In this document: positions 741-34,299 of the stretch, piece by piece
Numbering within the stretch: position 1 is the stretch's first letter
How the letters are laid out: every line of letters begins with the position of its first letter
Source of the DNA: Sphaerolaimus hirsutus
Taxonomy: Eukaryota; Nematoda; Chromadorea; Monhysterida; Sphaerolaimidae
Assembly: GCA_964036195.1 (NCBI GenBank)
Contig: CAXIWS010000562.1
Coordinates: forward strand, 1-64,000
DNA: 64,000 nt
Direction: 5' to 3'
Position numbers and translations under genes: made by a program
The notes under the pieces: generated by a model
What the model saw: only the letters and a program-made list of their open reading frames with translations
The model's database searches: none
What the model was told of the DNA's origin: nothing

Positions 741-1197
741 GTATATTAAATTAAATCAACCGATCAATTATATTAAATATAACCAAAGCGAATTTGAATA
801 TTAAGTAAATGAATGAAATACCGAAAAGTTTCTTCATATTGATGTTGCCAGAATGCATTTCATAGACAATGTGTGAATATGACTACTGCACAAGTTGAGA
901 TTCTCGTGCACAAGACGTATTTACTTGAAGCATAATTATAATCATAAAGTGGTATTTAAAATGATACAAAAGTATTTCAACAAATTTTCACTTTTCTATG
1001 CAATCAACCAGTTTCCATATCAAATTCTCATGTGTCTTAGTGCACTGAACTGCACTGCACCTTCAGTACAAAAGAAAGCTAATTGATGATGTAATGAAAA
1101 GTGCAAATATGTAATATTCTGAACACATTGTAAACATTCTTGCAAACTAAATAGCGTAATAATAAGACTAGATAAAATAGCCCCGTACATTTCAATT

Positions 1198-4100
1198 TCA
1201 CTTCCCTTTGCCTTTTCCATCGTCCTTCCTTACATACATGATTATTACGGGATCGTATTTGGCAGAGTGGCGGTGACTGTGGTAGCCGAGCATGGGCAGT
1301 GCTTTCTTTCTCATTCCTGAAGTTTTTGGCCAATCAAACCCCATGGCATCATAAATTATCGGCAGTCCATCATAGTTGAGCAGCGATGTGAAGTGGCCGA
1401 TAGAACTGGTGTCAGCCCTGTCAGCCGCACTGCATGAAAGATTAAATAATTGTACTACAGTCACATCAGTCACACACAGTCACATCTAAACTCACTAAGA
1501 TGATTAATTGTGCACACGTGCAGTTTGTTGTGCACATGTCGTTTTGTATTGTACACAGATGTTAGCAAATTAATTCATTTTTAATCAATACATTAGCATT
1601 GCACTTAATCTATTCAAATTAATCAGTGACGACAACTAATACATAATTGTATAAAATATATCCAAAAATAAAGCTATGTTGAAACTAGTGCAAAATAGTG
1701 TGCATACAAATTGATGTTTAACCTGTAAAAATTGGACGATGGAAAACAGGGTGGTGCACTTGCAGCCGTTCCAAGCAATCTGTTAGAGCGATTGTGCAGC
1801 ACGACTCCAGCACAATAGTACCTGGAATTAATGAATAGAATATGTCTCTACAACACTGTAAATATAAAGTTTTGGGATGTGTGTTATTTGTCAACATTAT
1901 ACTTAAAAATATTGAAAAATTAGACTCGTTCAGAAGTGATTTATATGAAGCAAAGGAGATACGTTTTCATTCAAATCAATCAAATTAAATCATTTTGTCA
2001 ACACTTAGACTAGTGCACAAGTCACGTGTGTCGTGCACAAGTCGCTTTGACTTGAAGCCGAGGAGATCAATAACAGAAACACGTCCATGCAATCTGTACA
2101 TGATCTGACACGCTGGGAGCGTCCCCGTCGCTCAGATCGGACACCTCGTTGGAGGTGACTAATGCCCAGCTAATTTTTCTTCATTCCAATCATTTACTAT
2201 CAAGTATTACTACATTATTTGTCCGCTTCAAGTCAAAACGACTTGTGCACGACACATGATACTTGTGCACTAGTTGTATTTCCTATAATATACCTCCATT
2301 TAATTGAAAAAATCACACAACACATTTGGTACAAAATTATCCGATAGTGAGAGGAATGAAATGTGATGAAAAATTAATAACATTTTTTGTCTTTAATTCC
2401 AAAGAAGTATGATAGACTTCTTTGTCATGATATACATGAAAAATTTCCACAAACTTGTCATTTTTGATGATTAGCGTTTCAGGCAAAGCTCCCGGCAAAA
2501 GTAATGGATCGATGAGTGTGTTTTCGTGATTAAAATCCAGTTCGCCAAACACCTGCAGCCACGGTTTCGTTGGATCTTTCTGTTTGATTGCATACTTTGC
2601 CCAGTCACACACTTGGCGCTTATCGCAGTAATGGTGCATCTCACTGCAAAGAACAATAGGAAATACATTTACATAAAATGTTAATAAAATGCATGTTAGT
2701 TGCATGAACCCCCCTCGAATAGACCCCCCCAACTCAGTTTTCCAGTTTTTGCATGTTTTCCATAGGTATTTACACGGAACTGTACACATAAGTCTCGTTT
2801 TACTACACATTTTAGCATTATTTCGTGTATTTATAAAAAGTGATTGATTACTACAAACTTTCATTAAATTTTCTGGCGAAATAATAAAACCCCCCTCGAA
2901 ATATCCCCCTCGAAATATCCCCCCTCGAAATATCCCCCCTCGAATAGTACCCCTATCCCTAAAATTTGCTGGCGAAAAAATAAACCCCCCGGGGGTTATT
3001 CGAGGAAATACGGTATATAAATATATATATATATATATAAATATATATAAATAAAGTATATATATGATTATTACATATAAATTTAACTAACTAGTTCCGT
3101 TCATTTGATGGCTTTGCACCTCTAACGGTTTTCATTGACCCAGTATCATCAAAAAAACGCTGATGGACTAAGCGACCGTCAGCCAAGAGCTGCAAGATTT
3201 GTGGCAGTATCCTATGAGTGTACTGCACCGCTGTCGATGGCTGTGTTAAGAAAGTAAATTTGTTTGTGAAATATTATTTGACTTTGCAATCCACAAGTCG
3301 CAACGCACTCCTATTTCCCTTTAATATAAATCTTCAATATAAATATAAAGCTTTAATATAAATCAATTTGTCAACAATATAACTTGTGCACGAGTCTCTT
3401 GTGTCGTGCACAAGCCGTTTTCACTTGGAGCAGAAAAAATTCAATGACAGAAATACCTCCAGACAGAAACAGAAACAAATCCTTTGTTGTGCAACTGTAA
3501 AAAACTCACAGCCGTCAACTTGGGGGGGTGCACAACTGCATTGTGGAAATCCCATGAACCGGCCAAATTGATTACTTTGGCCCAGTCGTACATATGATCA
3601 AACGCCACATTCCTATACAACCGATGCCTCTCAATGGACCATTCTCTTGACCCCTCCGATGTATCGTCCAAATACGGGCAATTTCTTTCATCGCACCTAA
3701 GCTGCACACTGCTGTGCAGGTGCTCTTCATGAAATAGATACTGGATGATATCATCCATGATTGCTTGGCAGTCCAACACTGGCTTTGGCATTGAACGATC
3801 ACCCTTCTTCTTTTCCTTCGCCTTTTCATACTCGCTTCGTTCTTCAGTAAACTTGCGCAGTGGTGTAGCGTCAGTTGGGTCTCTTGACTTTTTCTTTTTT
3901 TCTTCTTCCACACGTGTGAAATATTCGACAATTAATTCTGACCTCACTGAGTCAAACTTCTTATTATTGACAGCTTCCAGCATTTGACACAACATATTGT
4001 CAGTTCTACCGCCAGTAGTCATTGTGTTGAGCAGATTGTCGCATTGTTGCATCTGTAAATAAGTATTTTATCCATGCTCATATGGTCAATGTTAAATTTA

Positions 4101-4423
4101 TTATACATAAAACAATATACCTAGTGAATTTAGCAAAAAAAACCACATCTCTATTTTTTATTATATTTATTTAAAAAAATAATTTATTTAAAATAATAAT
4201 AGTATAATTAAATAATATAATATTTATTACCATTACTGCTTTTCGCACAAAAGAAAAACACGTTTAAAAATTATAAGTACTATTACCTACTGTGTATAGA
4301 AACTACAGTAAGATTCTCACCTGCAGGAAAAGTGCGTACAGCCAGGAATCCAACGTGCACGTGTTTTTCAGTTCATATTCAAATTGGGGGTCATGACATC
4401 CCCACTTCCAAGGTTGCAAGATT
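1198..4423 (-). CDS. Transposase gene exons 30-35: USP-like cysteine peptidase segment
   Basis: Exon 30 carries LKNTCTLDSWLYALF, like the Cys box of C19 (USP) or related papain-fold peptidases; the Cys codon is 4359-4357. Exons 33-34 join across donor GTTTGT to read NDKYYCAGVVLHN, and exon 35 carries SIGHFTSLLNYDGLPIIYD, a His box with the His codon at 1395-1393, before a Lys/Gly-rich end and stop at 1200-1198. The two boxes are about 335 residues apart, within USP range. Exon 32 must end at donor GTCAAT (3139-3134); read through, it stops at TAG 3093-3091, an alternative end without the His box. Ulp1 proteases occur with some plant MULEs; a USP-like domain is my inference from short motifs. 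Confidence 0.68.
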
Positions 4424-7400
4424 CTGCAAAAAATATTAACGTGTGTGTGTCTAATTATAATATATTTTATGACCTAACCTAAACAACTTGTGCCCTATGA
4501 AATTCCAGCAAATTTCAGTCCGTATCAACTTTAAACTCGTCTCAGTGCACTGCACAAGTCGCAGTGCACTCCTATCTGCATGGATATAATTTTGACACAT
4601 TTTTGCAACATCTTTTCTGCTTCAAGTGAAAATAACTTGTGCACGACGCATGCAACTGGTGCACAAGTTATATTTCCTATAATAAACATCCGTGCAGATA
4701 GCACTGCACTGCGACTTGTTTCAAAAAATAGACAAAAAGAATATTTATTTACCCGGTCAATCTGCAAAGCGGACACTCCCAGGTATGTGAATCCGACTCT
4801 CTCTTCGTTGGGCGAAATTTTGGTGGCATGCAAGTCAATGGTACAGGCATGCCAGCCTTGTTTACTGCCTTGATGTGGTAATTAAGGTATGGTCGCACAC
4901 AGCCGTCCTTATTCTTGCATTGAATTATTTGCCAACCCTTTTTCATTGCTTTCAAATGATTTATTCTTGGGAAACCACACACGCAGTCTCTGAGGAAGTT
5001 ATTTAAATACATGAATGGATACAGAAAATAAGGCAAATGCTTACAGAGAATTACCCAAAGGGATACAGATGATTTAAAACATTTTTGATATAAATTTTTT
5101 GTTCAGCGTTTTATTTACTGAAAGTAAAACAAAGTTATATTACCTAAATGCTCATGATCGTTGACTTTTGTGTGGACCTTGTCAGGTGTGTTTTAATGTA
5201 ATGCAATTCACTAAAATGTCATTCATGAAATTATGGTAACTTTTATTTTTTATCGTGTACAGTCCAATCAGTATACTAACCGCGGATACGTCATGGCTTT
5301 GACCTTTCTATTTATTTCCAGATATGACAACTCGTTCTTTTCTTTTAGCAATGGAATTTCAGGCAAACAATCTTCCTGTGTAAACTCCATCAAAACTTTG
5401 TTATCCATCTTTGGTTTGATGTGCTCTTCAACGTAGATGCGCAGTGCATTCCTCGGATCATACTCATTTGTTTTCATGCTCCACTGTTGTGCATACACTG
5501 AATTCCTGAAATAAATGAAGTGTATGTATTTTCAAGGATTACATGTGAATTGAGAATTGTTCTTAAATAATATAATAATCAAATATGGGTGCATTTAATT
5601 TTTACCATTACTCACATCTCCAGAAACAGAAATATAATTTTTTAAGCTAACAAACAAATAAAAAGAGCTAACGCTTTGTACGTTCCTGACATGATATCAA
5701 TCAGGTGCATCGTGAGGTAATCGGATTTTGCATCGGCTGGCAAATTTCTACTGCCCCTCCCCTGTGTCCACACAATTTGAACCTTTGGGTTTTCTAAATT
5801 GCTTGTGCAAGCAGCTGCCGCCTGTGTATAATACAAATACATCAATTTACAATTAAGTATAGCTAAAAAAACCTAAATTGAAGCTACGTGCAATTGGAAT
5901 TACACCATCTAAAAAGCCATACACTTGTACTTGTACTATAATAATATACACGGACATATATTAAAGGAAATATGACTCGTGCACAAGTAACATGTGTCGT
6001 CAACCACATCGGAATGAACACAATCAAGTTACAGGCTAGATGAATTTAGTGTTATATTGTAAAAAAATCATATAGAAGACTGCAGTACGTGTAATTTTGA
6101 GATATCTATCTAATCAAAACATATTTTTTATTATGTTTATGTGTCACTTGTGCATGACACATGCGACTTGTGCATAAGTCAAATTTCCCACAATATACAT
6201 CCGTGCAAATAGGACTGCACTGCGACATGCGCAGTGCACTGAGACGTGTGTAAAGTTGATTTATGCACTCCTATCTGCATGGATATCTTTTTGACAGCTT
6301 TTTGCGTGATGTCTTCTGCTTCAAGTCAAAGTAACTGGTGCACGACACATGCAACTTGTGCACAAGTCAAATTTCCCACAATATACATCCGTGCAAATAT
6401 TTCCCACAATATACATCCGTGCAAATAGGACTGCACTGCGACTTGTGCAGTGCACTCAGACTTTTGAATATTTTTGAAAATTTCCCACAATATACATCCG
6501 TGCAAATTTTTCCCACAATATACATCCGTGCAAATAGGACTGCACTGCGACTTGTGCAGTGCAGTCCTATTTGCATGGATATATTTTTCTATGTTTCAAG
6601 TTAAAAAGACTTGTGCGCCACTCATATGACTTGTGCACTAGTTATATTTTCTACGATACACATCCATGCACGCAGGACTGCACTGCGACTTGTGCAGTGC
6701 ACTGAGATAAGCGGAAAGTTGAATAAAGTAATAATTTGATGGTAAATTCCCAGTGTGAAGTGTCCCTGATTGGGGGTAATGTCAAAAAATATTATTTAAA
6801 CAAAGAATATTTACATAAACCTACCATCAATTCAGCATTTGTAGTTGTGTCGTGGCCGTCCTTTCGCAGACTTCATAGACTTTCACAAAAGAATGAGCAG
6901 TGGGATTTACTGGATGACAATATCGGTGCACGATGTACATTGAATCCAAATCATGCATCAGGAATACTTTGTTCACATCCCTGTTTGTTGGCACCGCTGC
7001 CAGTTCATCAATCAAATCAGTCAGCATAGGGGAAAACCCATCAATGTTGATCAAAGTCGGATGTATGCGGATATTTCCGCTATTACGCCTGAGAAACAGC
7101 AAGCCCTCGGCCACGGAAGGCGTATAAACCGGCCCGCCAGCGTCAGGTGGTTCCCGGTTCTGAAATGAAGATTGCGTTGAATGAATGAAGCGTTGTGTGG
7201 AGGTATAGAAGCTTGATAAATTTGAAAAGGTACATTTCGCATGGACAACATTATTTTAAATTTAAATGCAAAATTGTTACAAACCAGCAGCTCAATGACA
7301 TCTCCCAGGTCTCCATTCATATGTCTCTTCCATAAATGCATATCACTTTCATCCTCAGACAACAGTTGCTGATCATCTACATTCTGTGGTCTCCAGAATG

Positions 7401-10400
7401 CGGATTTCTCATCAGGGTAAAGAACTGCTTTATGATCCTTTGCAATATTTCTCATAAATGGTTGATCCGTGCAAGTGTTGTTTGCTTTTGAATCTAAATG
7501 TAAAAGTACAATCCATAAAAGTGTAAAAGTACAAAAGGAAAAGTACAATGTAAAAGTACAAAGGGGATAAGTACACCATTTCTTCGAAATACCCCCAGGG
7601 GGTTCATTTTTTACGCAATCAAATTTTTAGGGGGCTCTATTTGAGGTGTTTTACTATTTCGCCAGAAAGATTATGAAAGTTTGTTGTAATTAAGCACTAT
7701 TTATACATGAAAAATTGCTAAAATGTTTGGTAAAACGTGACTTGTGCATGCATTCCTGTTTAAATAGCTATGGAAAACAGTGTATGTGAGGTTCTGATGA
7801 TGATTGCATCATGTTTTACATTGTGTACATTGAGCATACATTACATCATTTCAGAGGTGGGTATATTCTAGGGGGAATTATTCGCGGTTTTTACTACCTG
7901 CTTTCTGCACATTACCATCCTAAAAATAATCTGTTCATAATAATAATGAAAATTCAGTATGAAGAAACTGACCCGAAGAGGATGATGATGGATTTCGTTG
8001 TCGTTTTGTTCGTGCAGGAACATTTTGCTCGACAGTCTCTGCCCCGTCACGAACATCAGGATCACCTCGTGAACTCAGATCCACAGTAACACTAGACAAT
8101 CCAGCGGTGCCTTTGTGAGTTGATGTTTTCTTTTTTGGTGGTGGCTTAAATTTAATGTAGATCTTTTTTGACCTACCACTCGCAGCATCTGCAGTGGAAA
8201 ATTTTATAAAGATAAATTTTCAATAAACTGCATCCATGCAAAATACAAGTGCACTGTGACTTTGCAGTGCAGTGACATTGGTGTAATTCGTTTCATTTCC
8301 TATTTCCATGGAAATATTTTTGACATGTTTTTTTGATATTTAGTATACTTTGAGTGAAAATGACGTGTGCACGACACAAGTGACTTGTGCACAAGCAAAA
8401 TTTTAATGTGGGTGTGCTTTGATAGCATCTTTGAATAACAGAACACTTATGCACAACAATTAACTACATGAAACGTAAGATAAGTAATTCAAAAGATAAA
8501 TGCAGACCAAATATAAAATTGAAGTACCCTACCTACCCCCTCTATCATAGGTATTGTCACTCACCATTTGCAGGAGGCTCACGATCTCCATGTGCAGGAG
8601 ACTCACCACCAGCAGGAGGCTGAGCACCAGCAGGAGGCTCACCACCAGCAGGAGGCTCACCACCAGCAGGAGGCTCACCACCAGCAGGAGACTCACCACC
8701 AGCAGGAGGCTCACCACCAGCAGGAGGCTCACCACCAGCAGGAGGCTCACCACCAGCAGGAGGCTCACCACCAGCAGGAGACTCACCACCAGCAGGAGGC
8801 TCACCACCAGCAGGAGACTCACCACCAGCAGGAGGCTCACCACCAGCAGGAGACTCACCACCAGCAGGAGGCTCACCACCAGCAGGAGACTCACCACCAG
8901 CAGGAGACTCACCACCAGCAGGAGACTCACCACCAGCAGGAGGCTGAGCACCAGCAGGAGCATGAGGCGCTCCAGGCTCATCATCACGATCGTCATCATT
9001 GTCGCGTCCTTTTTTAGCCTCTGTTCCGCCACCGCCACCATCACTGTCACTGTCACTGTCATTGTCACTGTCGCCGTCACTGTCGTCCTCTTTTTCATCG
9101 TTTTTGTCATCATCCAACTCCTCGTCACTGTCATGTTCATTGCTGTCCTCCTCAATGTGATCATAACTGACCCTTTCTCTCGGCTCATGTTCGTCATCGT
9201 CCTCCTCGATTTCCTCACTGTCCTCCTCGATTTCCTCACTGTCCTCCTCGATTTCCTCATTGTCCTCCTCGATTTCCTCACTGTCCTCCTCGATTTCCTC
9301 ATTGTCCTCCTCGATTTCCTCACTGTCCTCCTCGATTTCCTCATTGTCCTCCTCGATTTCCTCTGCCTCCTCGTCTACGGTTAGCAAAGCTCGCCTTCCT
9401 TTATGCTTCCGTGGTGATTGCCGCCTCTTGTCTTCATCTTTGTCACCGGCTGCAATTGTGAAATGCAAATAAGTTCATATTCGTATTTATGTACGCATGA
9501 CTATGCGCTTTGACACATTTTCTATTTATTTTACTTCAACTCAAAGTGACGTGTACACGACACAAGTGACTTGTGCACAAGTCAAATTTTCAATAAACTG
9601 CATCCATGCAAAATACAAGTGCACTGTGACTTTGCAGTGCACTGAGATTGGTGTAAATGTAATAAGTAGTGAAATTTTGTGCAATCGTAAAGAACCTACC
9701 AGTTTCGTCCTGTGGATCGTGTCGCTTCTTGAGATCTGATCGCACCTTCTTTCCACTCACAGTCGCAGCAGCTGCAGTGTCGCGCGTCTGCTGCTGAACA
9801 GTTTTTTTCGGCGTCTTCTCTCCACTTTTCGCATCTGCACATTTAAATTACAAATGTACTTGTTTTATTCAATTATAATACTAAAACACTCGTGCACAGT
9901 GTTTTCCTATTTGCATGGATACACTTTACAAAGAATAATACTTGCGAAGAAGTCGTTTTTACTTGAAACATAGCAAAGATGGTAAGAACGTGTCAAAAAT
10001 ACATCCATGCAAATAGGAGTGCGCTGGAGTGGTATTTAGTAAACTTTGAGTGAAAATGACGTGTGCACAACACAAGTGACTTGTGCACAAGTCAAATTTC
10101 AATAAACTGCATCCATGCAAATACAAGTGCACTGCGACTTTGCAGTGCACTGAGATTGGTGTAAATGAAATAAGTAGTGAAATTTTGTGCAATCGTAAAG
10201 AACCTACCAGTTTCGTCCTGTGGATCGTGTCGCTTCTTGAGATCTGATCGCACCTTCTTTCCACTCACAGTCGCAGCAGCTGCAGTGTCGCGCGTCTGCT
10301 GCTGAACAGTTTTTTTCGGCGTCTTCTCTCCACTTTTCGCATCTGCACATTTAAATTACAAATGTACTTGTTTTATTCAATTATAATACTAAAACACTCG

Positions 10401-13400
10401 TGCACAGTGTTTTCCTATTTGCATGGATACACTTTACAAAGAATAATACTTGCGAAGAAGTCGTTTTTACTTGAAACATAGCAAAGATGGTAAGAACGTG
10501 TCAAAAATACATCCATGCAAATAGGAGTGCGCTGGAGTGGTATTTAGTAAACTTTGAGTGAAAATGACGTGTGCACAACACAAGTGACTTGTGCACAAGT
10601 CAAATTTCAATAAACTGCATCCATGCAAATACAAGTGCACTGCGACTTTGCAGTGCACTGAGATTGGTGTAAATGAAATAAGTAGTGAAATTTTGTGCAA
10701 TCGTAAAGAACCTACCAGTTTCGTCCTGTGGATCGTGTCGCTTCTTGAGATCTGATCGCACCTTCTTTCCACTTACAGTCGCAGCAGCTGCAGTGTCGCG
10801 CGTCTGCTGCTGAACAGTTTTTTCGGCGTCTTCTCTCCACTTTTCGCATCTGCACATTTAAATTACAAATGTACTTGTTTTATTCAATTATAATACTAAA
10901 ACACTCGTGCACAGTGTTTTCCTATTTGCATGGATACACTTTACAAAGAATAATACTTGCGAAGAAGTCGTTTTTACTTGAAACATAGCAAAGATGGTAA
11001 GAACGTGTCAAAAATACATCCATGCAAATAGGAGTGCGCTGGAGTGGTATTTAGTAAACTTTGAGTGAAAATGACGTGTGCACAACACAAGTGACTTGTG
11101 CACAAGTCAAATTTCAATAAACTGCATCCATGCAAATACAAGTGCACTGCGACTTTGCAGTGCACTGAGATTGGTGTAAATGAAATAAGTAGTGAAATTT
11201 TGTGCAATCGTAGAGAACCTACCAGTTTCGTCCTGTGGATCGTGTCGCTTCTTGAGATCTGATCGCACCTTCTTTCCACTCACAGTCGCAGCAGCTGCAG
11301 TGTCGCTCGTCTGCTGCTGAACAGTTTTTTTCGGCGTCTTCTCTCCACTTTTCGCATCTGCACATTTAAATTACAAATGTACTTGTTTTATTCAATTATA
11401 ATACTAAAACACTTGCGACTTGTGAATCTGCACCCGTTACAGTAAATTACACATGTATTATATTACTCAATTACTATCAGTTTATTCAATTATATTTCTT
11501 AAAAGTTGTGAAGACTAATTTCTGTTGCGTAAATGTGAAAACAAGTAGAAAATAAATTTATAAATAAAATTGATCACCTCCCGAAAGAAGCGAGCGTTTC
11601 GCTTTAACTTGTTTTCCTTTTTTTGAGTCTCCACTCTGCTGTGTATCAGCACGTTCGTTTTCACGGTCACTTGAATCACTTCCATCACTTGAGCTGGACT
11701 CCACGTTTCTGTTCTCCATTCTATGTTTGCGAATACTCTGGTGGTCGCTCATTTGGCTGATATAATTGCGGTGCGCAGTCACATCTGGATCACACTCCTC
11801 AGCATCAGATTCGGCAGAGACATCATCGACACCCCTTTGACCAACCACTACTGACTTGACTGGCGAATGTTTGGCTGACGAAAAGTGCAGAGGTATTTTT
11901 GCTGCAATCCTCTCATCCTTCCTCAGTCTGTCGGCATCCTTCGGGATATCCGCCTTAAAAATGCGGCGCATTATGGCCGCACGGGCAACTTCAGCATGCA
12001 AACAGCGCACTCGACATGCACACTTGATTTTCATTTTATCCCGTGCTCTTTCATTATCCTCCACCATCACGGCATGCCAATTGGCCTCTCGCTTATCGCG
12101 CACCTGCATCAGTAAAAGTTTTATAATTTTTTATCATTCTACCTTTCATATATAACATATGGATATTTCTCACAGATTAAGAATGTACAAATTTACTCAT
12201 GCACAAAAATATAGAATATATAGATTTGAAAACAACTTGTGCACAACAAATTGGAATTCTGCACTATTCCTATTTGTATACTGATAACATTTTACTCATA
12301 CATATGTCCATGAAAATTGGAATGCATAGAGACCTTTGCAATGCGCTGAGGCGGGTGCAAAGTTAATAAGGAGTGAGATTTAAATGCTTTGCATGCGTGA
12401 AGTACTTTGAACTATTGATGTATCTATTCAAAATAATTTTACTGATTCATGAGAAAAAAAGTTGGCTACAAGTAATTTATTCTGATTGCGCAGTTTTAGT
12501 ATGTTTCAAAGAAACGGCATATTGAACAAACCAAAACCCATCCATAATCAGCTCTTCCATCCATGACCGAATATCGCGCGTCATCTTTCTGACCTTGCAT
12601 CATCACCAAATGCTCCATGCGCACAGGCTCAATTTCCGCTTTCATCATTTTTCTCAATGTCTCTCCTTCCACAATATTACCGGATTTTATGACATTTACC
12701 AGACTTCGCGAATTTTTTACAAAATCTTCATATTCGCTGCCGAGTGAAGCTGGTCTCATTGGCCAAGTAGTCCTGCACAAAATCATTTCATAGGAAATAT
12801 GACTCTTGCACAAGTCACATGTGTCGTGCACAAGTCACATGTGTCGTGCACAAGTCATTTCGACTTGAAGCAGACAAGTAGTAAATTTTGTTTACTTATG
12901 AATCTAAATGTAAAAGTATAATCCTAACTTTAGTCACAAATGAAATTTGATAAATGCTAAGATGTTCTGTTTCCAGTCAAAACGACTTGTGCACGACACG
13001 TGTGACTTGTGCACAAGTTACATTTCCTATAATATGCAGCTACTCATTAAGTAAATAATAGAAATGATTTTTCATGTGCAATTGCAATATTGCAGCTTCA
13101 TTAAAAAAGATGGTTTGAATGAATTTCCACAATACAAATCCAACTGAAACGCATTAATAAAAGAAAACAAACGCGCGGTAAAGGCCTTTGGCTCCAGCAC
13201 CAGCAACAAGGTTGACGCATGATGTTTGCGTTAGCACCTCTTGCACATTGTCCATTTGCATTTCCAAATACAGTTGATTGCTGTGTGCACGTTATTTATA
13301 TATTTTTGCAATGTTATATGCAGTGGTCCGCATGCCCTACCCAGATAATTAATGTAATGACGTAATAACATAATGACATTATTGTTAGTTTTATCAAACT

Positions 13401-16400
13401 CACTGAAAAATCGTTGCGCACAGGCCCGCCGTGGATACCGATGGCGCATTCTTTTTCATCAAGTTGTGACAACCCTCGACAGCATTACTGTACACGCCTT
13501 TCCTCGATGAAGTAACACTGACTCCTCTTTGGTCATCTAAATACTGTGTATACAATGGTAATGTTTATACAAGCTGTTCAATTTTCAGGGCAGGGCAATG
13601 TTATTTCATTTTTGTTTATTTTTTTTGGCATTCTTAAGAAATGGCTACACAAACTGGCTATTTTCTGTTGAGTCCCCCGAGTGTGCGTCATTAGGACAAA
13701 AGTGCAATCGTACAACGGTGGCTTTTATACAACGAAAACGCTCCTTAGGACAAAACATACAACCTTGTACAACATCTGTCGCTTCCGTACAACGCATGTC
13801 GCTTTCGTACAACATACGGTCACATAGGTAAAATATATGTACTGTATTACCTCGAAATACCCCCATGGGGGTTTATTATTTCGCCAGCAAAATTTGAGGG
13901 GGGGTTAATTCGAGGGGGGGTTTATTCGAGGGGGGGGGGGTTATTATTTCGTCAGAAATTTTCGTAAGGATCGTAGTAAATAGTAGGCATTTGCGTACCC
14001 AAAATAGGTAATAAATGTGTCCAAACAGGATATATTTGGACATAAAAACGTAGATAGCTACACAAACTACTCTATGTGTAGCTGCGATGCAAATTAACAG
14101 TAATATACATCATGTACATTACGTACATGACGTACTTATTATGTACATGACGTACATCATTCTGAAGGGGGGGGGGGTATTTCGAGGGGGGGGGTTTATT
14201 ATTTCCCCAGCCCATTTTGAGGGGGGGTTTATTCGAGGGGGGGTTAATTCAAGGGGGGGGATAATTCGAGGTAATACGGTAGTTAAATGGATTATCACAA
14301 GCGATAAATGAAAATACTAAATGTTCAGCCTAATTGCATCACCAACAGCGGAAGAGAGATCATGCTCTTCATCAGGCACATTTAAATCATGATGTTACAC
14401 CAATTTCTCGCAACAGGTGTGGGAAACTCAATCAACATCAATATTGCCTCAGTATTGTATTTAGATATTTTGTATACAACGGACGTTGTACGAAAGCGAC
14501 ATGTGTTGTACGATCGGGATAAGTGTTGTACTAAAGTAGCTTTTGTCCTAATGAGCATTTTTGTTGTACGAATGCTACTGTTGTACAAATGGACTTTTGT
14601 CCTAATGGGATACCCCCTTTTCTGTTGATGCACATTTTCGGACCAGTCAAGAATCGTATGCATACTTAAAAATTCAATTCCAATTTACTGGTACTCCTGC
14701 TATAATTATTTAAAAAAGCACTGACCACATTTCGCGCTATTATTGTAAACGCTGTGGCAGTGTCCCGCAGACGTTTGAATGTCTTGTCAAAGTAAGAAAT
14801 AAGGCCCTTATTTGCTGGACTCTCTTCATCATCTTCCACGTCACCACCGTGTCCCTCCTTTTTGCCTTTAAATTTCTTCTCCAAATGTTCCATGAATTTC
14901 TCCCGTTTGTCGTCAAAATCAGTTTCGCTTTTAGCCATCAAAACAGTAAAAAATTGTTCCTTCAGTTTTAAAGCATCGTCTTCAGATAAATGACAATTTC
15001 TTAACTTTAAAGTCACATTATTGTCAATGTGCTTCCAGCACACCAGCACATGCATCTGGGGAAAATATTTCTCGAACTGCGACACAAACCTGAGAATAAA
15101 AATTTGTCATAAAATGAATATGATTGTGTGCAAGAACAAACTTCAGTCGCAAGTATTGATTTGTGCACACGTAATGTTTGCGATAAACGTCTATTCAAAT
15201 TCCAAATCAACCTCGCAGTGGTCTGAGTGTGCTGCGCACATTGCAGCGCATTTCTACTAGCACGGATGTAAATCATAGGGAATTTGACTTGTGCACAAGT
15301 TGCATGTCTCGTGCACAATTCATTTTTACTCTAAACAGACAAATAGGTAAATGCTTTTGAAAGTAAATGTAATAGTATAATCCTTAATTTTGTCAAAAAT
15401 GCATTAAAGCACCGAATAAAATTTGATAAATCCTAAGATGTAAGTATGCATAATGAAATGTCTACGTATCAGTTAAAATACAATTTTGCAATGTCTTTTC
15501 TGCTTCAAGTAAAAACAACGTGTGCACGACACATGCGACTTGTGCACAAGTCAAATTTCTTACAATATACATACATGCAAATAGGACTGCACTGCGACTT
15601 GTGCAGTGCACTGAGACGTGTGTAAAGTTGATGTAAAGTGAAATTGAATGCAAGCGTATATGAAAGTAGAATGGAATAGTTATGTATCACTTAATAATAT
15701 AAATATAGAATAATAAATAATAAATAAAAAGTGGAAAAATCAGTGGGCCTTGTTTGTTTTTGAATTGAAGTTTAAACTCATTGAACGTGTGTCAAAAGTG
15801 TATTCAACAGAACATAACTAACATGAAAATTTTGACGCATTTTGAGAATTTGTAACATGACATCCTTAAAGCTATTCTAATTGCTAAATATTTAAATACT
15901 TCAGATACCATGAAATAAATTTTATTTATAATTAAAATTATAAAATAAATTATCAATGTAAAATTGATTTGAAATGTAAAAAAAACAATGTGAATTTTGT
16001 ATTGACATTGATACATAACTACTCCATTTACATACGTCAGTGCATGCACTAAATGCATTCACCCGTATCAAATGTACAGCCGTCTCAGTGCACTGCGCAT
16101 GTCGCAGTGCAGTCCTATTTGCACGTATGTATATTATAGGAAATTTAGCTTGTGCACAAGTCGCATGTGTTGTGCACAAGTTACTCTGACTTGAAACAGA
16201 AAATACATCACAAAACCTGTCAAAAATACATCCATGCAAATGGTAATGCACTAAGACACTTGCGTTGTTTTAATCATGAGTCGGTTCTACTTGAAAACGG
16301 AATACAATCAATTAATATTTTATCAATTTTAATTTGTATGAATATACTTATACACAAAAAATATGACTTATGCACACGTCACATGTGTCATCCACAAGTC

Positions 16401-19400
16401 ATTTAGACTCGAATAATGTGTTATCATGGTGAAATTATTATCTATCAGTTAAACATGTTTTTATCAAAAAACTACTTGAAAACTTACACCTGATCGGTGA
16501 TGATGTTGATATTTTCCTTGTCCTTGAAAAATTTCCACTTCGGTTGTCTATAAGTCGATCCCAATGCACTCTCAAAGTTTAGCATTAGCTGGGAAACAGT
16601 TTCATCACCTTGATGATCATGTAGCATGCAGGCCACTGGGATGAATGCATTTGAGCTGACGTCAGCCTTCACAAATAGGCCTTTTGATAGTGCTTTATGT
16701 TTTGGCGTAATGTCTGGCAGTTCCAAGACCAACGTCGTCATCCAGAACTCGCCTGTAGTGAATTGTAAGCATATTATCATGCGTTTATTATCACATTGAT
16801 CACTTGAAAGTACCATGCGAAAAAATGTACTTATTAAAACCCAAATATAGAAAGCACTAAAAATAAAAAATAGATAAATATAATTATTTGGTCGATTATT
16901 AATATTGTTTAAAATTAAAGTAAATCACATGGCCAATAAAACTCACCACCAACTCCATACGTGGTATCAATTTGGAAATTGATTGGATTAGCGGCTCTAT
17001 TTTTGATCAATGTCTTAACCATTGCTACTGCGCGACCCGACATTTGCGTGTATGTGAAGTGGGGCCGTAAAGCGAAGTAGATCGGTGTTTCCCTGCCCAT
17101 TGCCATACCAAACCAGTACAGATCATATACGTTGCTGTCGGTCAGTCTGAACTTCTCTTTTCTCAATGTTTCAGTCAAGTGTGCCACCTGCCTATAGGTC
17201 ACAGCCTACGTAAATATATCAAAATTATCAGTCATAAACAGTTATGATATATTTTTAGTGTTGATTTCACATAACTAAACACATTATTCATGTGCGCAAA
17301 AAATGTTTCTCAGCAGAAACAATTGGACCAATTTAAATAAGAAAAAGTTAAATGGAAAGAAAAATTCACCTGAGTAGGGGGATCGTCATGGTCTCCATAT
17401 TGCCGTCTTTCAGACACTGAACTCGCTTGGGGAAACTGCTGATATCCACGCCGAATGCGGGACTTCGCGGACAACGTGTTTTGATTGCCAATATACCATA
17501 TCTGGAATCCACAATTATATATGTTTATATTTATATGAATTTATATGTTTAAAATGTCTCATTTCTAATTACTAGTCAAAATGATATGTGCACAAGTCAC
17601 ATTTTCTATATTGTGTATCAAAGTAAATAGTAAAGCACTGCGACTTTCACAAATGAAATGCATATGAAATTTATTTTACAATTATGACGATGAAAAATAT
17701 CAACATTGTTTGATCATTTCTGGCTACCATAGACAATATAATAAAAACACAAACCATGACATATTCAGGTTCGCTGATGTCGAAGTACTCCAGTCGCCAG
17801 AAATTGTAGTCCTTTTTACCACGGCCTTTCCCTTGCATAACGTATTTGCATCGTACAACGACTGGCAACTTATTCAAGTTTTTCTCGGGAACTGTCAGAT
17901 TAACATAATCAGTACCTCCAACAGTCAAGTGCTCGTCGTCCTTACTGCAATGGTAAAATTACAAGTAATAGTTAAATTTATAGTTGTGAACTTGTTTGTT
18001 GTTTGTTCCAACAAATAATTTGTTTGAAAGTGCATTCAATTTCACTCCATATCAACTTTACACCCATTTCAGTGCACTGCGCATGTCGCAGTGCAGTCCT
18101 ATTTGCACGGATGTATATTGTGAAAAATGTGACTTGTGCACAAGTCGCATGTGTCGTGCACCAGTTACTTTGACTTGAAGCAGAAGACATCAGGCAAAAA
18201 GCTGTCAAAAATATATCCATGCAGATAGGAGTGCGTATATCAACTTTACACCCATTTCAGTGCACTGCGCATGTCGCAGTGCAGTCCTATTCGCACTGAT
18301 GTATATTGTGAAAAATGTGACTTGTGCACAAGTCGCATGTGTCGTGCACCAGTTACTTTGACTTGCAGCAGAAGACATCACGCAAAAAGCTGTCAAAAAT
18401 ATATCCATGCAGATAGGAGTGCACTGAGGCTTGTGCAGTGCACTGAGACGGGTGTACATTTGATACGGGTGAATTTTAGTGCATGCACTGACGTATGTAA
18501 ATGAAGTAGTTATGTATCAATGTAAATACAAAATTCACATTGTTTTTTTATATTTCAAGTCATGTCGTTTCATTTCATAAATACATTTAAAAATGAAATC
18601 AAATCGAATGTAAAGTCAAACTCTTTTTCAAAGTCTTTTTGCTCATAAATTTAATCCATAAATGTAGTGAAAAGTCAAACTGACTAGGGCATATTGAATC
18701 GCTCTTTAAACGCTCCACTCCGCGCCATTTTCCTCGTTACATTCATCAGACGTTCCTGGTCGGATGGTAACTTCGCATTTGGATTTTGTGTAACGATTCC
18801 ATTGTGCCTGTAGAGCATAATTAAGTTATTCAGCCACATTACATTATCAATCAGACAATAGTCAAACAGTAGCGTATATGAATAATAAGTTTTGTGTAAG
18901 ATTAAAAATATGAATACGTTTTACTAAGTTTATATGCATAAGTTATATATAAGATTACATGGATAACTCATAAATACCTATATGAATTTTCATTATATAA
19001 AGATGTAAATACTGAAACCTACTCTTGAGTCAACTGAGCTGCCTTTCTGTAGATGTCCGGTATTTTCTGAATGGGATTCTCTCTCAATTCTTTTAAGAAA
19101 CAAATCACTGCCTTATTCTTTTTCGAAGATTTTTCTGCACCACGCTCGAAATCATTAATTTCCCTTTCAATATTTTTCACACAACTTTCAAAGTATCTGT
19201 TGCCCGGCATAGTTGATTTTTTTGTCAGAAAAGTTCGTCTCACAATGAAAACTTGTCCGCCATCTGGCAAGTGAATAATGCCACCTTGATCTGCTCTCGA
19301 GCGCGCATCTGGATCGTCTGCAATATCAGTTTTTCACCGTGACATATAGTGATGATTCAATAATTAATTGACCACAACAATAACATGAGCAAATTTATAT

Positions 19401-22400
19401 TGTGACTGAAATTTAAGTTAGAAATCAGTTTGCAAAAAAATGAGAAACATTACAAAAACATTTCACTTACGCAAAAACTTCAGGATGTCTTCTTCTCTAA
19501 TATACTGGAGCAGAGTATATTTCTTGCCTTCTGTCGTGTAACAATTATCTATAAACCACATCGGCTTCATTCTTTCTTTCAAAGGTTTCGAAAATGCAGC
19601 ATTAGTTTCGGTAATGCGGTAGTACTTGATCTTATCAGATATTCCACAAGACTCTGCGTCGCCATAGCTGAAGTCATCTGCATTTGAGATAATAATATAA
19701 ACAGTATTAACTTGAATATACATTTATAAATGTTGTTGTATTGCAGTGGGGAAACAACTTGTGCACAACGCATGTGACTTGTGCAAAAGTCATATTTCTT
19801 ATAAAGCGCATCCATGCAAATACAAGTGCATGAGACAGGTGAAAAGTTGAATAGAAACGTGAAAATAATCATACATTTCTATTCAAAAGAGAATATAATC
19901 AAAGACTACTGTTAAAATCTACACATTACAATTTCAATGGACTAACATTTACACATGGATACACATTACAAAGAAATAACTCGTGCACAAGTCACATGTG
20001 TTGTGCAGTAGTAATTTTGACTTGAAGCAGAAAAGAGATCGCAAAATTCTACTTTAATTGATATGTAAACATTTCATTCTATTTACCTACTTACATTTTC
20101 GCATTGATCCAATTTTATTCGGTGCTTTCATGCATTTTTGACAAAATTCTGGATTATATCTACTTTTACATTCAAAAGCAAACAACACTTGCCTATTCGC
20201 TTGGTTCAATTAAAACTGACTTGTTAAAATTGATTAAAATCTAAATGCAATCGCGAGTACACTGAGACAGGTCTGTATAGGTAAGTGCATTAAAATAGTT
20301 GCGTATAAAAATACCTGGTGATTCTTCTTGATCATCTAAGTGCATAGCTTCCCGCTCCTCCTCATCTGTGTCCATTTCTTCATCAGCCGTACTCGGGACA
20401 ACTGAGTGCGTTGACGGTGGCACATCAGAGGGCTGGGCACTGTCACTTTGCAACCCTTCACTTGCGGATTCTTCTTGGCGCTGCAAACGGTCGATAATCG
20501 CTAACGTGCTCTCCGCTGATGCACTTTCTGTGGCTCGTGGTGGTCGTCGGGAAGATTGTGACTCTGACTCTGACTCTTCTTCTCCACTGTGACTACTACT
20601 AGCGTCGTCGTCGTCGGCATTTGAGCCTATGCAAAATGAAAGTGAAATAATCATATATTAGCTTAAAGACAAACTTAAACTTAAAGCTTAAACGACTTAT
20701 GCAGTGCAACAAATTTCAATTCAAATCAAATAAAGCTCAATTACTTTTCCCCTTTTTATTTATTTTCATGTATTTTCATGTTGCAGCACACTTCTACATG
20801 CACTGAAGTATATTATAGGAACTATGATGCGTGCACAAGTCACATGTGTTCTGTACCAGTCAATTCGTCAGAAAAGACATCGCAAAATTGTATTTTAATT
20901 GATACGTAAACATTTAATTCTGCATACTTACACGGATGTGTATCGTAGAAAATGTGACTAGTGCACAAGTCATATGACTGGCGCACAAGTCTTTTTAACT
21001 TGAAACATAGAAAAATATATCCATGCAAATAGGACTGCACTGCGACGTGTGCAGTGCACTGAGACGGGTGTACATTTGAAATGGGGTGAATTTTATTGCA
21101 AATGTACATGTCAAATTTACAAATATTGAAAAATCTAACTTGAACTTTGGCGTTCTTCATTTTTTTTTGCTTCTCTTCTTTTGATTCCAGCAACAATCGT
21201 CTCTGAAATAAATGGATTAATCATTGATATACAGTGCGGATGTCCAGAATGCTACCATAATTTAATCAATAGAAACGATATTAAGGACTAAACATGTTTT
21301 TCTATCTTCAATCTTTCCATATCAAATTTACACCAATGTCAGTCTTAAATAGGTTATGACTTATGTTAGTCTTATGTATTATGTTAGAAAAAATGTTACC
21401 AGTGCACAAGTCATATGACTTGTGCACAAGTCTTTTTCACTTGAAACATGGAAAATAGATATCATCCATAAAATATATGCAAGTCCGTAGATTGTACGTC
21501 TGGGTCAATTTTGTATTTTGTATTCAACATCCGAGATGCTTGTGGCCTTATGTGATATGTAAATTGGTAGAAAATAATAAAAAGATATACACAAACGTTT
21601 CTTTCCTCTTTTTCGTCGAGTTGGCGATTTATCCCTGCGACGACGAGACTTCTTGTCAGCACTGGTTGATGCTGGCAATCTTGGTACCCAGGACTGTGCT
21701 GGAGTAGAAGCAGCCAGAGACAATCTGTCTTCTTGTGACGGGATCGAGTCGCCTTCTTGCTGCTGCCAATCCCTTTGTGCTGAGATGAGTAATATTTTAT
21801 GTTAAACCACTTTAATATTACATTTATAAAGACCAGCTAAAATTCTCTACTATTACTAGATTTTACCAATGTAAACTCACTGGTGTGCTTCTTGCTGCCC
21901 GTCGTAGCACTTTTACGCTTCTGTTGAGGCTGATCTTTCTTGTGTGGCGTTTGCAGTCCATGCTGGTTAGGAACTGCTTTTATCTGCTTGGTTCTCGATC
22001 TGGTTGACCGAGCTGAAAGATGATAAAACCATTTCAGACAAATTCATTTCACAAATTGTTATCATTATTTCATGGAATATTCATTTATGGAAATGAAAGT
22101 TTCTGTATATTTTACAATGTTTTGCACAAAATAAATATTAAATTTATTTGTCACATTTGTCTAATAAATGAGTAGAAATACATGTGACAAAGTGCTTTTT
22201 CGACTTTCGTGGGACTGGTCCCTGGTGTGACTATTGCACGACTTACCATCAGAACTTTCGGTCGCACTTGAAGAATCCTTGTTCTTATCACGTTGCGATT
22301 TGCTTGGGCCGGCTTTTGGTTTCTTGTATGGTGTTCGTTTACCGGACTCATCTGAGAGTGAGATTTATTGTTGTCATTGTAATACATTTTAAAGAAATTA

Positions 22401-23225
22401 CCTAAAGGAAATTGTCATTCACACACACTTTGTACAATAAATGTTTGTGTGCTTCATAACACCCTTTATATGATTGTTAAAAAATTCAAAACCATAAAAA
22501 ATGTTGTATTTCTTATTGTAATATAATAATGATGACCAGTGCAACTGACCACTTTCAGCTGCCTTTGTAGCACTACGTTTCTCTCCAGTCGACACTTGTG
22601 ACCTTGGACGTTTAACTTCTGATTGTGTGCCCTTCGGCGGTGGTACTGACTCTTTTCCTTTATCGGTTGTCGTCCTAGTCCTTTGGGAAATTGGTGGTGA
22701 AACTTTTGGCAGTGCTGCTTTACCATGACCACTACCACGACCACCTGGCTTCTTTGGCGGTTCAGGCTTCTTTGGCGGTTCAGGCTTCTTTGGCGGTTCA
22801 GGCTTCTTTGGCGGTTCAGGCTTCTTTGGCGGTTCAGGCTTCTTAAAAATGTCGCTTTTTCCATCTTTTGCTGCTGCTGCATCGCTTTTTGCTTTTTCCT
22901 CCGCTAGTTTCGCAATCCTTTCTGCATCATCAACATTGCCCGTAGCATCGCTAATTTCGGCTCGAGCTTTTTTCAGTTTTTCCTCCGCCTTCCTCTTCTG
23001 TCTTGCTGCTGACTCTGCAGCTTTTGTAGCCTTATCAATTTGCTGCTTTTTCATCCTTAATATTTTTTCTCTTTTCTTATCATGCTCAGTTTTCTTCTTT
23101 GGACCACCACCAATTCTAGAAAATCGATGAAGAAAACGTGGTCCACCCTTAGTGAACTCTTCCCATGGCGTACGGCCTCGCTCGTTTGGCCCATTGCCAC
23201 GAATAGCGGGTTCATTGTCAGACAT
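1198..23225 (-). CDS. Giant 35-exon MULE-like DDE transposase with C-terminal cysteine-peptidase-like segment
   Basis: Exons in transcription order: 23225-22550, 22351-22247, 22012-21881, 21779-21597, 21202-21140, 20626-20315, 19677-19471, 19317-19023, 18807-18685, 17944-17755, 17501-17370, 17205-16947, 16752-16488, 15089-14726, 13543-13404, 13280-13173, 12772-12532, 12103-11578, 11357-11223, 10849-10716, 10342-10208, 9834-9700, 9449-8565, 8188-7973, 7493-7285, 7159-6825, 5821-5682, 5505-5281, 4989-4753, 4423-4321, 4052-3510, 3240-3140, 2643-2455, 1821-1723, 1429-1198. Each intron begins GT (often GTCAGT, GTTTGT, GTTAGT, GTAAGT) and ends AG. Phases agree at every junction if two one-base losses (in 10849-10716 and 7159-6825) are allowed for. 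The total is then about 2,791 residues, far above usual MULE transposases. The first Met is the ATG at 23225; an AG lies four bases upstream, so an untranslated exon may precede it. It could be a huge autonomous transposon gene or a domesticated host gene. The exon chain is well supported; the function rests on motifs only. Confidence 0.82.
1965..2185 (-). repeat. Inverted copy of the sequence at 49270-49490, with a coding-like GC-rich core
   Basis: The complement of this stretch matches 49270-49490 almost base for base, including GC-rich CTGAGCGACGGGGACGCTCC in otherwise AT-rich DNA. On the minus strand one frame reads TSNEVSDLSDGDAPSVSDHV before a stop, so it may be a former exon. It lies in the intron between exons 33 and 34 of the transposase gene, which does not need it in frame. 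Confidence 0.55.
3013..3070. repeat. AT-rich (TA)n microsatellite
   Basis: Alternating TATATATA with interruptions, directly after a G/C-run element end (ATTCGAGGAAATACGGTATA). It lies in the intron after transposase exon 32, overlapping the untranslated side of the alternative TAG end. Confidence 0.75.
4753..8188 (-). CDS. Transposase gene exons 24-29: region between repeats and peptidase, with a frame break
   Basis: Exons 8188-7973, 7493-7285, 7159-6825, 5821-5682, 5505-5281 and 4989-4753. In exon 26 the frame that reads FLMHDLDSMYIVHRYCHP meets a TGA (6829-6827) just before donor GTAGGT, while the next exon needs phase 0. One base appears missing near 6872, where the phase-0 frame takes over. 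Exon 29 has paired cysteines (DCVCGFP near its start, WECPLC near its end) that suggest a zinc site. Exon 27 to 28 joins in phase 2 at donor GTACAA. The break is either a real mutation or a sequence error. Confidence 0.7.
5960..6720. repeat. Cluster of GACTTGTGCACAAGTC-family inverted repeats
   Basis: Repeated modules: GACTTGTGCACAAGTC-like palindromes, TTTCCCACAATATACATCCG (four times within 6371-6532), GACTGCACTGCGACTTGTGC, and GCACTCCTATCTGCATGGAT. The cluster fills the intron between transposase exons 26 and 27. The short repeated TCCCACAATATACATCC blocks near 6371, 6400, 6482 and 6510 look like slippage inside one element. Confidence 0.7.
8565..9449 (-). CDS. Transposase gene exon 23: acidic EEIEED and PAGGES/P repeat exon
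   Basis: A single 885-base phase 1-1 exon. It opens with a short basic part, then 21-base repeats coding EEIEEDS or EEIEEDN (plus-strand 9197-9368), an Asp/Ser/Gly tract, and about twenty 18-base repeats coding PAGGES or PAGGEP (plus-strand about 8600-8950). It ends PPANG before donor GTGAGT. Long open frames on the other strand and frames here are by-products of the repeat. The protein is probably disordered and the copy number is likely to vary. Confidence 0.78.
9500..11420 (+). repeat. 508-bp tandem repeat carrying the duplicated exon
   Basis: Exon starts at 11357, 10849, 10342 and 9834 give periods of 508, 507 and 508 bases. Units are almost identical, including intron sequence with TGACTTGTGCACAAGTC and ACATCCATGCAAATAGGAG. 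The copy near 9500-9840 is partial and more diverged on its left side. The similarity implies recent expansion by unequal exchange. Confidence 0.85.
9700..11357 (-). CDS. Transposase gene exons 19-22: one exon in four tandem copies
   Basis: Four copies of a 135-base, phase 1-1 exon (11357-11223, 10849-10716, 10342-10208, 9834-9700) encode the same 45 residues, beginning DAKSGEKTPKKTVQQQT and ending KKRHDPQDETG. Each has acceptor TGTGCAG and donor GTAGGT. The second copy is 134 bases because a run of seven T near 10818 (plus strand) has lost one base, shifting its frame. As the exon is symmetric, skipping would preserve the protein. The peptide is basic and low in complexity. Confidence 0.75.
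11578..13280 (-). CDS. Transposase gene exons 16-18: post-core helical region
   Basis: Exons 13280-13173, 12772-12532 and 12103-11578 extend the protein past the catalytic Glu, as the helical end of MULE transposases usually does (LYLEMQMDNVQEVLTQTS, then YEDFVKNSRSLVNVIKSG). Exon 18 contains KIKCACRVRCLHAEVARAA, with three Cys and a His that may bind metal, and ends Ser/Asp-rich (ESSSSDGSDSSDRENE). The donor of exon 18 is GTGATC, weaker than the rest. Confidence 0.7.
13404..17205 (-). CDS. Transposase gene exons 12-15: MULE-type DDE catalytic core
   Basis: The first Asp is in NFQIDTTYGVGG (codon 16968-16966, about residue 885). IPVACMLHDHQGDETVSQLM follows, the usual stretch before the second Asp, in NIITDQ (codon 16495-16493, about residue 978). 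The MULE C..H signature is FPQMHVLVCWKHIDNNV in exon 14. The catalytic Glu is in YSNAVEGCHNLMKK (codon 13477-13475, about residue 1124). The order and spacing match MULE transposases, including the animal-type family with D-T-T and C-x2-H-x2-N-N. All three catalytic residues and the C/H pair are kept, and these four exons are open. The donor after exon 13 is read as GTAAGT at 16487-16482, which gives the correct phase. Confidence 0.85.
13689..14607. mobile_element. Long-TIR element with a nested G/C-run MITE
   Basis: CATTAGGACAAAAGTGCAATC at 13689 is mirrored by ACTTTTGTCCTAATG ending at 14607. The arms, about 130 bases (13689-13820 and 14475-14607), share GTTGTACGAAAGCGACATG-type motifs in opposite orientation. 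Between them sits the G/C-run element 13840-14281. It lies in the intron between transposase exons 14 and 15. A single diverged arm of the same family is at 32455-32592. No protein is encoded, so it would depend on a transposase supplied elsewhere. Confidence 0.55.
13840..14281. mobile_element. G/C-run MITE (ends TACCGTATTACCTCG)
   Basis: The left end TACTGTATTACCTCGAAATAC and right end ATTCGAGGTAATACGGTA are complementary. The inside has runs of up to ten G and repeated TTATTATTTCGCCAGAAA-like words. The outer TA may be a TA target duplication. It is nested in the longer inverted-repeat element around it. Confidence 0.6.
17370..19677 (-). CDS. Transposase gene exons 7-11: globular region before the DDE core
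   Basis: Exons 19677-19471, 19317-19023, 18807-18685, 17944-17755 and 17501-17370 change phase in step (1, 2, 2, 0, 0). The sequence becomes ordinary globular protein: SCGISDKIKYYRITETN, then GGQVFIVRRTFLTKKSTMPG, then VVVRCKYVMQGKGRGKKDYN followed by FWRLEYFD. Regions ahead of MULE cores often carry DNA-binding folds (FLYWCH, WRKY-GCM1 or FAR1). The Cys and aromatic spacing here does not let me assign one. Confidence 0.7.
18040..18460. repeat. Tandem pair of GACTTGTGCACAAGTC-family elements
   Basis: Two copies, offset by about 186 bases, each run from ATCAACTTTACACCCATTTC through TGCACTGCGCATGTCGCAGT and GACTTGTGCACAAGTCGCAT to CCATGCAGATAGGAGTGC. They fill much of the intron between transposase exons 9 and 10. 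Confidence 0.7.
20315..22351 (-). CDS. Transposase gene exons 2-6: low-complexity region
   Basis: Five exons (22351-22247, 22012-21881, 21779-21597, 21202-21140, 20626-20315) all begin and end in phase 1, so each could be skipped without changing frame. The first four are Lys/Arg/Ser/Gln-rich with basic clusters such as KKSRRRRDKSPTRRKRGKK, which could act as nuclear localisation signals. The last is acidic and Ser-rich, with DDDDASSSHSGEEESESES near its start and DEEMDTDEEE near its end. I recognise no domain. Confidence 0.68.
22550..23225 (-). CDS. Transposase gene exon 1: charged N-terminus with KKPEPP repeats
   Basis: The exon starts MSDNEPAIRG and runs through a long Lys/Glu/Ala-rich stretch likely to form a coiled coil (about residues 50-125). 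Six near-perfect 18-base repeats coding KKPEPP follow (plus-strand 22741-22845), then a Ser/Thr/Lys-rich tail. It ends in phase 1 at donor GTCAGT (22549-22544). No catalytic motif is visible. The composition suggests a disordered, nucleic-acid- or partner-binding arm. The 18-base repeat is prone to length change. Confidence 0.75.
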
Positions 23226-23339
23226 GAGCCTGCACAGTGTGTCAGTGTCTTCACTTGTAGCAGAAAAAACATCACGAAATTGTAAGATCAACTCGCGCAG
23301 AAATTTAGTGCAACCACATCTACCAGTGCACTGCACATG

Positions 23340-34275: not shown

Positions 34276-34299
34276 GTTAAAACGGGATAAGTGAGACAA

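Follow-up and report, generated by a model that had tools for sequence, protein, structure and literature searches.

A multi-copy, 32-exon gene with a transposase-like core and peptidase-like boxes in a large repeated element of the nematode Sphaerolaimus hirsutus

The gene and its exon chain

The window analysed here, a stretch of 64,000 nucleotides of Sphaerolaimus hirsutus DNA, carries on its minus strand a gene (23225-1198) whose 32 exons join, in our splice model, into a single open frame of 2,678 residues followed by a stop. Its 31 introns are all of the GT-AG type, with phases 0, 1 and 2 occurring 8, 13 and 10 times. Read from high to low coordinates, exons 1-8 lie at 23225-22550, 22351-22247, 22012-21881, 21779-21591, 20626-20315, 19677-19471, 19317-19023 and 18807-18685; exons 9-16 at 17944-17755, 17501-17370, 17205-16947, 16752-16488, 15089-14726, 13543-13404, 12772-12532 and 12103-11578; exons 17-24 at 11357-11223, 10342-10208, 9834-9700, 9449-8565, 8188-7973, 7493-7285, 7159-6911 and 5821-5682; and exons 25-32 at 5505-5281, 4989-4753, 4423-4321, 4052-3510, 3240-3092, 2643-2455, 1821-1723 and 1429-1198. 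The original prediction had described a phase-consistent chain of 35 exons encoding about 2,790 residues, with two one-base breaks; the chain holds, the counts have come down, and one break is left, in a tandem exon copy (10849-10716) that is one base short in an A-run and is skipped by the model. Apparent frame breaks of c4, c11 and c12 were rejected when better donors were found at 6910, 2454 and 1722, which remove them. A candidate exon e4b (21202-21146) introduces a stop and was left out; its use, and the frame of e10, are uncertain.

The exon chain is coding beyond chance. Codon scoring and repeat coverage were computed on a 30-exon draft that includes e4b, omits the tandem exons and has earlier ends for c4, c11 and c12. 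By leave-one-out codon scoring, 26 of these 30 exons had the model frame at the top of the six frames, where chance would give five; the exceptions are e4b, e10, c12 and c8, the exon of the Cys box, where the model frame came second. Repeats of the window cover 49% of the intron bases, counting in a 508-bp tandem array, and nothing of 29 of the 30 draft exons; the remaining one, c1, is covered to 82% by its in-frame minisatellite. A dispersed repeat with CTTGTGCACAAGTC and CAGTGCACTGC motifs occurs at many places in window 1-32000, both in introns and in the arms.

The N-terminal part (exons e1-e5, 20315..23225; residues 1-471) is mostly of low complexity, basic or acidic, and is followed by a region that precedes the core (e6-e9, 17755..19677; residues 472-743). 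Behind the core lies an array of four 508-bp units (9543-11413), each of which carries, within 9700..11357, a 135-bp exon flanked on both sides by phase-1 introns. The unit is present in four copies in the window and in ten matches on contig C9 (10849712-10855584), and with a symmetric exon in each unit the number of exons therefore differs among copies of the element. Exon c1 (8565..9449) encodes acidic repeats (EEIEED) and an 18-bp minisatellite translated as PAGGEx. One further protein stretch separates the tandem and c1 exons from the zinc motif of the C-terminal half.

Copies of the gene in the genome

The gene is multi-copy, which had escaped the original prediction. Our searches of the species' own genome (348 Mb in 762 contigs) scored the best candidates, and all counts are lower bounds. 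With the core as query there were at least 74 exon matches, with e13 at 13 or more places and no stop within any e13 match; with the C-terminus there were at least 108, with c9 at 15 or more places and split in two at one of these. The copies are distributed over four contigs of 24-30 Mb (C4, C9, C14 and C16), partly over C1 and C3, and over small contigs. In most exons their likeness is 94-100%; lower values, such as those of e9 (91%) and c9 (88%), occur in type B, one of the two types described below. A full set of exons is represented on C14, where e1 to c13 all have a match within 22.6 kb (those to e10, e16, c1, c3 and c6 being partial). Its last ten exons (c4-c13) keep the splice sites and the stop of the window, with in-frame indels, and no stop occurs among its codons aligned to the window, region 8565-11480 being left out. 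The likeness of the copies and the stop-free codons of C14 bear out in part the original suggestion that the gene is under selection or very young.

Identity in c9 and c6 divides the copies into two types (C9 was assigned by c6 and other exons). Type A comprises the window, two plus-strand copies on C4, C426, C571, and the plus-strand copies on C11 and C16; type B comprises C14, C9, two minus-strand copies on C4, the minus-strand copies on C11 and C16, C215, C289 and C664.

The C-terminal half

The zinc motif lies in exon c7 (4753..4989, minus strand; residues 2164-2237). It is a PHD-like C4HC3 pattern with an aromatic residue before the last ligand pair, and it gave no match to the PHD family of Pfam. 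The three sequence boxes behind it occur in the order NTCTLDSWL, YYCAGVVLH, GHF. The Cys box ELKNTCTLDSWLYAL (NTCTLDSWL) is encoded by exon c8 (4321..4423), with C2263 at codon 4359-4357; exons c12 and c13 (1198..1821) encode YYCAGVVLH (residues 2570-2578) and GHFTSLL with H2614 (GHF being residues 2613-2615), and end with the stop at 1198-1200. Between the Cys and His boxes, exon c9 (3510..4052) encodes a C-x4-C pair and has diverged strongly between the types: where the zinc ribbon of a USP would have two CxxC knuckles, type A has only this C-x4-C, type B a C-x4-C and a C-x2-C. A Cys box ahead of the His box is the order of USP and OTU peptidases, not that of Ulp1. The boxes begin 1,157 residues beyond the core Glu. 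Separate Cys and His boxes of a USP-like peptidase had been announced some 1,250 residues beyond the core; the boxes are there, slightly nearer, and the profiles do not make them USP.

The order of the three USP-like patterns was found in one of 200,000 shuffles of the C-terminus, and the zinc pattern in one of 100,000 shuffles of its stretch; these figures flatter, since both patterns were set or loosened after the sequence had been viewed. The UCH (USP) profile of Pfam gave no match up to E=10 with either type. A small USP profile scored 2.0 bits against the C-terminus (E=0.0054 in a search of one sequence), and the comparison by hhalign gave E=0.03, with one of five shuffles scoring better. 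Two loci on C2 (L125 and L126, about 756 kb apart) match the C-terminus at 28-34% identity, with no core match listed there at E up to 1e-4. Both of these divergent paralogs keep the zinc ligands; in the first, the intron that follows the zinc exon is also at the same position, and Ala stands in place of C2263. Judged from these paralogs, the peptidase module probably predates the spread of the element and need not always be active.

An inactive role for the C-terminal part, as a scaffold or pseudo-peptidase in place of a working ubiquitin protease, is a serious possibility, though short of probable. The silent UCH profile and the Ala at the position of the catalytic Cys in the C2 paralog speak for it. 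It has to be weighed against the Cys and His boxes themselves, which do not differ between types A and B, against 88% identity for the C-terminal stretch as a whole.

The transposase-like core

The core residues are D867, D960, C979-x2-H982 and E1106, in the spacing D-92-D-18-C-x2-H-123-E. D867 (QIDTTY; codon 16968-16966) is in exon e11 (16947..17205), D960 (IITDQ; codon 16495-16493) in e12 (16488..16752), the C-x2-H (VCWKHIDNN) in e13 (14726..15089), the exon present at 13 or more places in the genome, and E1106 (SNAVEGCHNLMKK; codon 13477-13475) in e14 (13404..13543), all on the minus strand. From their pattern we infer a catalytic role for D867, D960 and E1106. A D-D-E triad with C-x2-H between the second Asp and the Glu is the motif of the Mutator-like elements (MULEs), and it is also common to several transposase superfamilies. 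IS256 is a prokaryotic group related to Mutator.

An intact MULE D-D-E core had been claimed for this gene. The residues and the C-x2-H are indeed present; profiles do not place them in the MULE family. PF10551, the MULE profile, matched neither single exons nor the joined core at E up to 1 and 10, and the core, exons singly and joined, had no Pfam match to MULE or DDE families. IS256 was the only NCBIfam match of the core (E=0.0027; 16.7 bits against a cut-off of 150), at a level that unrelated families reach in other profile scans (E=0.0032 and 0.0087). This match spans residues ~964-1036 and so begins just past D960 and includes the C-x2-H. A profile comparison with IS256, built from 23 of 25 chosen IS256 proteins drawn from 80 loci, aligned around the C-x2-H with a probability of 0.2%, not above that of the reversed or shuffled core. 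No PDB chain matched the gene pieces or joined parts up to E=10. A large protein collection held no relatives of the core or the C-terminus at the thresholds used, which says little, as three animal bait sequences run together with the core also found nothing; animal proteins may be scarce in the collection, or the baits may have been inaccurate. One query each against the PDB, Pfam and, in its unscored part, the protein collection, and the genome query with the C-terminus, used the earlier splice of c11 and c12 with some intron residues; later C-terminus queries against Pfam and the protein collection used the corrected splice. Given these profile results, membership of the MULE or USP families is not established. 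The sole PF10551 match reported in the genome itself is L001 (G000:C15:12236230-12236487), an ordinary-looking MULE exon unlike the core of the window.

The missing profile support for MULE, together with the spread of the motif over several superfamilies, would also agree with a giant transposon whose D-D-E core is of another kind, or whose core is inactive and moved in trans by a partner. Also in line with it is the type A copy on C16, where e7 and e13 are only about 1.1 kb apart and neither e11 nor e12 is among the matches listed. We regard this explanation as somewhat unlikely in view of the order and spacing of the core residues, IS256 as the sole NCBIfam match, and the long inverted arms and possible 9-bp duplication of the element (see below).

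Collinearity of the core and the C-terminal exons

The core and the C-terminal exons belong together, as originally predicted: the latter follow the former on the same strand and in the same order at 11 of the 13 places of e13, and ten of these reach c9. C9 is collinear only as far as c7, and C289 has a larger gap. As to the other two places, contig C10 ends after the core, and C234 has core exons with no C-terminal exons among the matches listed. The loci whose sequence was inspected are C4, C9, C14 and, as regards their tails, C426 and C571.

Collinearity of this kind would also be seen if the element held two adjacent genes, a transposase-like one ending at a TGA past c4 (~6828) and a peptidase starting at ~5842. 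Exon c4, read beyond its donor at 6910, is open to that TGA; a good donor follows it closely at 6824, and c5 is directly preceded by an in-frame ATG (~5842). Against this, the donor at 6910 (CCA|GTAAAT) restores the phase without a break and is kept in C14. A pair of separate genes is therefore unlikely in our judgement.

Ends, size and arms of the element

The gene sits within a larger repeated element, which measures tens of kilobases and has inverted ends; neither this element nor the two diverged types of the gene featured in the original prediction. In the window, the part of the element left of a retrotransposon insertion (31..32735) aligns piecewise, at about 93-99.8%, to C4, C9 and C14, as does piecewise the arm right of the insertion (43400..51204). 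The arms of the window show no strong coding signal by the codon usage of the gene. Tandem arrays of 104-bp, 107-bp and 6-bp units occupy 45938-46236, 49382-49936 and 48766-48956 of the arm. The terminus GGGCGCACCATGTTCTACTGCAG, read inwards on the minus strand, lies at 51180..51204, where likeness to the other copies stops. Three further loci, each with flanks of its own, have this end (GGGCGCACCATGTTC..., near window 51200), namely C4 (26119200), C14 (901579) and, as its left end, C9 (10819195). The four loci supply five ends, four of which are the same to within one base, and four different outside sequences.

Both ends were seen in one element only, that of C9, which lacks most C-terminal exons after c7. 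Here the end GGGCGCACC... occurs twice, inverted, at 10819195 and 10881533, 62.3 kb apart, with arms that are alike over kilobases; at the right end (10881533) roughly the last nine bases are replaced by others. By eye, CAGTTTTTC fits as a 9-bp direct repeat flush with both C9 ends. Since both flanks are the same minisatellite and the right end is altered, it is only a possible target-site duplication; the automated comparison of the flanks reported another shared word.

These ends bear on the idea that the copies are a segmentally duplicated cluster of a host gene, for instance a fast-evolving conflict gene, that has spread with its flanks and is no transposon. The copies do share tens of kilobases of flank, intronic repeats included, several lie together on C4 as inverted pairs, and the candidate duplication CAGTTTTTC is unproven. 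Set against this are an end that is the same within a base at four loci before the sequences diverge, its second, inverted occurrence on C9 with an altered tip, and the scatter of copies over C4, C9, C14 and C16, partly C1 and C3, and small contigs. Taken together they make a host gene cluster quite unlikely. A young, intron-poor MULE was rejected, the copies having repeat-bearing introns in common.

Arrangement and divergence of types A and B

In all four pairs seen (two on C4, one each on C11 and C16) types A and B stand tail to tail. The gap between the facing c13 exons measures about 3.0-3.4 kb in three pairs and 16 kb in the C16 pair. The contigs of the window and C426 begin close to the gene tail and that of C571 inside it, and on C14 an assembly gap falls at this point. 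Breaks of this kind at the gene tail may reflect a palindrome.

Divergence was counted with the tandem and minisatellite region 8565-11480 omitted. In the comparison of the window with C14, 163 of 6,711 aligned exon sites (2.43%) and 104 of 10,289 aligned intron sites (1.01%) are different; the exon figure is understated, as the first parts of e16 and c3 cannot be aligned between A and B and dropped out. By codon counts, pN is 0.0276, pS 0.0151 and the intron value 0.0115, so that nonsynonymous sites exceed both synonymous sites (p=0.0084) and introns (p=1.9e-12). The excess over introns recurs in the comparisons of the window with the type B copy of C4 (p=3.1e-11) and with C9 (p=1.5e-4), in which the difference between pN and pS falls short of significance (p=0.13 and p=0.37, respectively). 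Within type A, the window and C4 show no exon excess (nonsynonymous sites against introns, p=0.53). The changes are concentrated in c6 (32 nonsynonymous changes in 179 nonsynonymous sites) and c9 (44.5 in 432.5). Exon c6 adjoins the zinc exon, and c9 lies between the Cys and His boxes; the boxes themselves carry no change.

The diverged blocks could have come by conversion from a third, itself diverged, copy. The type B copy of C4 fits this: its synonymous sites exceed introns (p=0.023), which is what block replacement would give. Such conversion would not alone raise pN over pS. The excess of protein changes beside and in the peptidase suggests, so far as codon counts can tell, that this half of the protein may be pressed to change partners.

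A probable giant MULE-like transposon

The sequence evidence at hand speaks best for a giant transposon that is MULE-like and represents a new variant. We think it reasonably probable that the gene belongs to a giant DNA transposon of the cut-and-paste type, and we lean, with about the same modest confidence, towards an element that works like a MULE with a deubiquitinase. In such an element the gene would encode, after splicing, one protein of about 2,700 residues. Its D-D-E/C-x2-H core, with a MULE-like RNase H fold, would cut and join the element ends. The PHD-like finger may bind chromatin or a partner and so direct the transposase, and the USP-like C-terminal part may strip ubiquitin either from the transposase itself or from restricting factors of the host.

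With animal MULEs such as Phantom and MuDR-6_HM the element shares, at the level of the motif, a D-D-E core with C-x2-H before the Glu, as well as inverted ends and possibly a 9-bp duplication. It differs from them by its 62 kb, its 32 exons, a peptidase that is USP-like and not OTU, and a core that PF10551 does not match. It differs also from plant MULEs with a Ulp1-type peptidase, in that its Cys box precedes its His box. Those plant elements, already named in the original prediction, likewise unite a transposase and a cysteine peptidase. For animals, the excerpt of PMC6446971 describes an OTU domain in the Hydra MULE MuDR-6_HM, an earlier case of a MULE from an animal with a cysteine peptidase of the ubiquitin type; no USP-type peptidase in an animal MULE appeared among the titles and abstract openings covered by our literature search, which included few subscription journals. 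The same excerpt names a PHD finger and a minisatellite for the MULE-related group Rehavkus. By description our element resembles this group in both; here the minisatellite is within a coding exon. Helitrons carry VTD and OTU deubiquitinases that the accessible part of PMC9741609 proposes to protect proteins needed for transposition; they too are mobile with deubiquitinases, but they move by rolling circle, and VTD has Asp-x-His where Ser-Ile-Gly-His-Phe is found here. As to size, arthropod MULEs measure 1.4-10.0 kb in the section seen of PMC13359780, and PMC6431247, in its consulted passages, considers eukaryotic DNA transposons to be perhaps limited in size (Pack-MULEs up to 7 kb; enlarged CACTA elements 16-20 kb) and describes Polinton/Maverick, Teratorn and Terminons, which likewise are large and have accessory domains. 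In contrast to these, the present element has a single giant spliced gene and arms without strong coding signal.

An element that reaches 62 kb, has inverted ends and carries one gene of 22 kb and 32 exons would stretch this picture of the size of DNA transposons. A ubiquitin-type peptidase joined to a transposase would also allow a direct test of whether transposases need to be shielded from the proteasome. Finally, two versions in one palindrome, with exons outpacing introns, would record an arms race inside a mobile element. This last idea leads to a speculation that we ourselves consider doubtful: that the element is a palindromic giant animal transposon with two face-to-face versions of a transposase-PHD-deubiquitinase gene, and that both have been retained as diverging partners, protein change in the peptidase half being favoured in a contest with host ubiquitin pathways or rival copies.

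Other elements in the window

The retrotransposon in the element arm (32735-43400) is of the gypsy type, with an open frame of 2,039 aa on the minus strand (36549-42668); it is absent from the C4 and C9 copies and is therefore probably a later insertion. Directly outside the element end, at 51047-54339, open frames resemble by eye fragments of a second gypsy-like pol gene. Further to the right, at 55898-63975, lies a BEL/Pao element, of a kind that points to an animal host, with a frame of 2,141 aa, the end of which matches a family of viral fusion glycoproteins (PF24664; E=1.2e-12).
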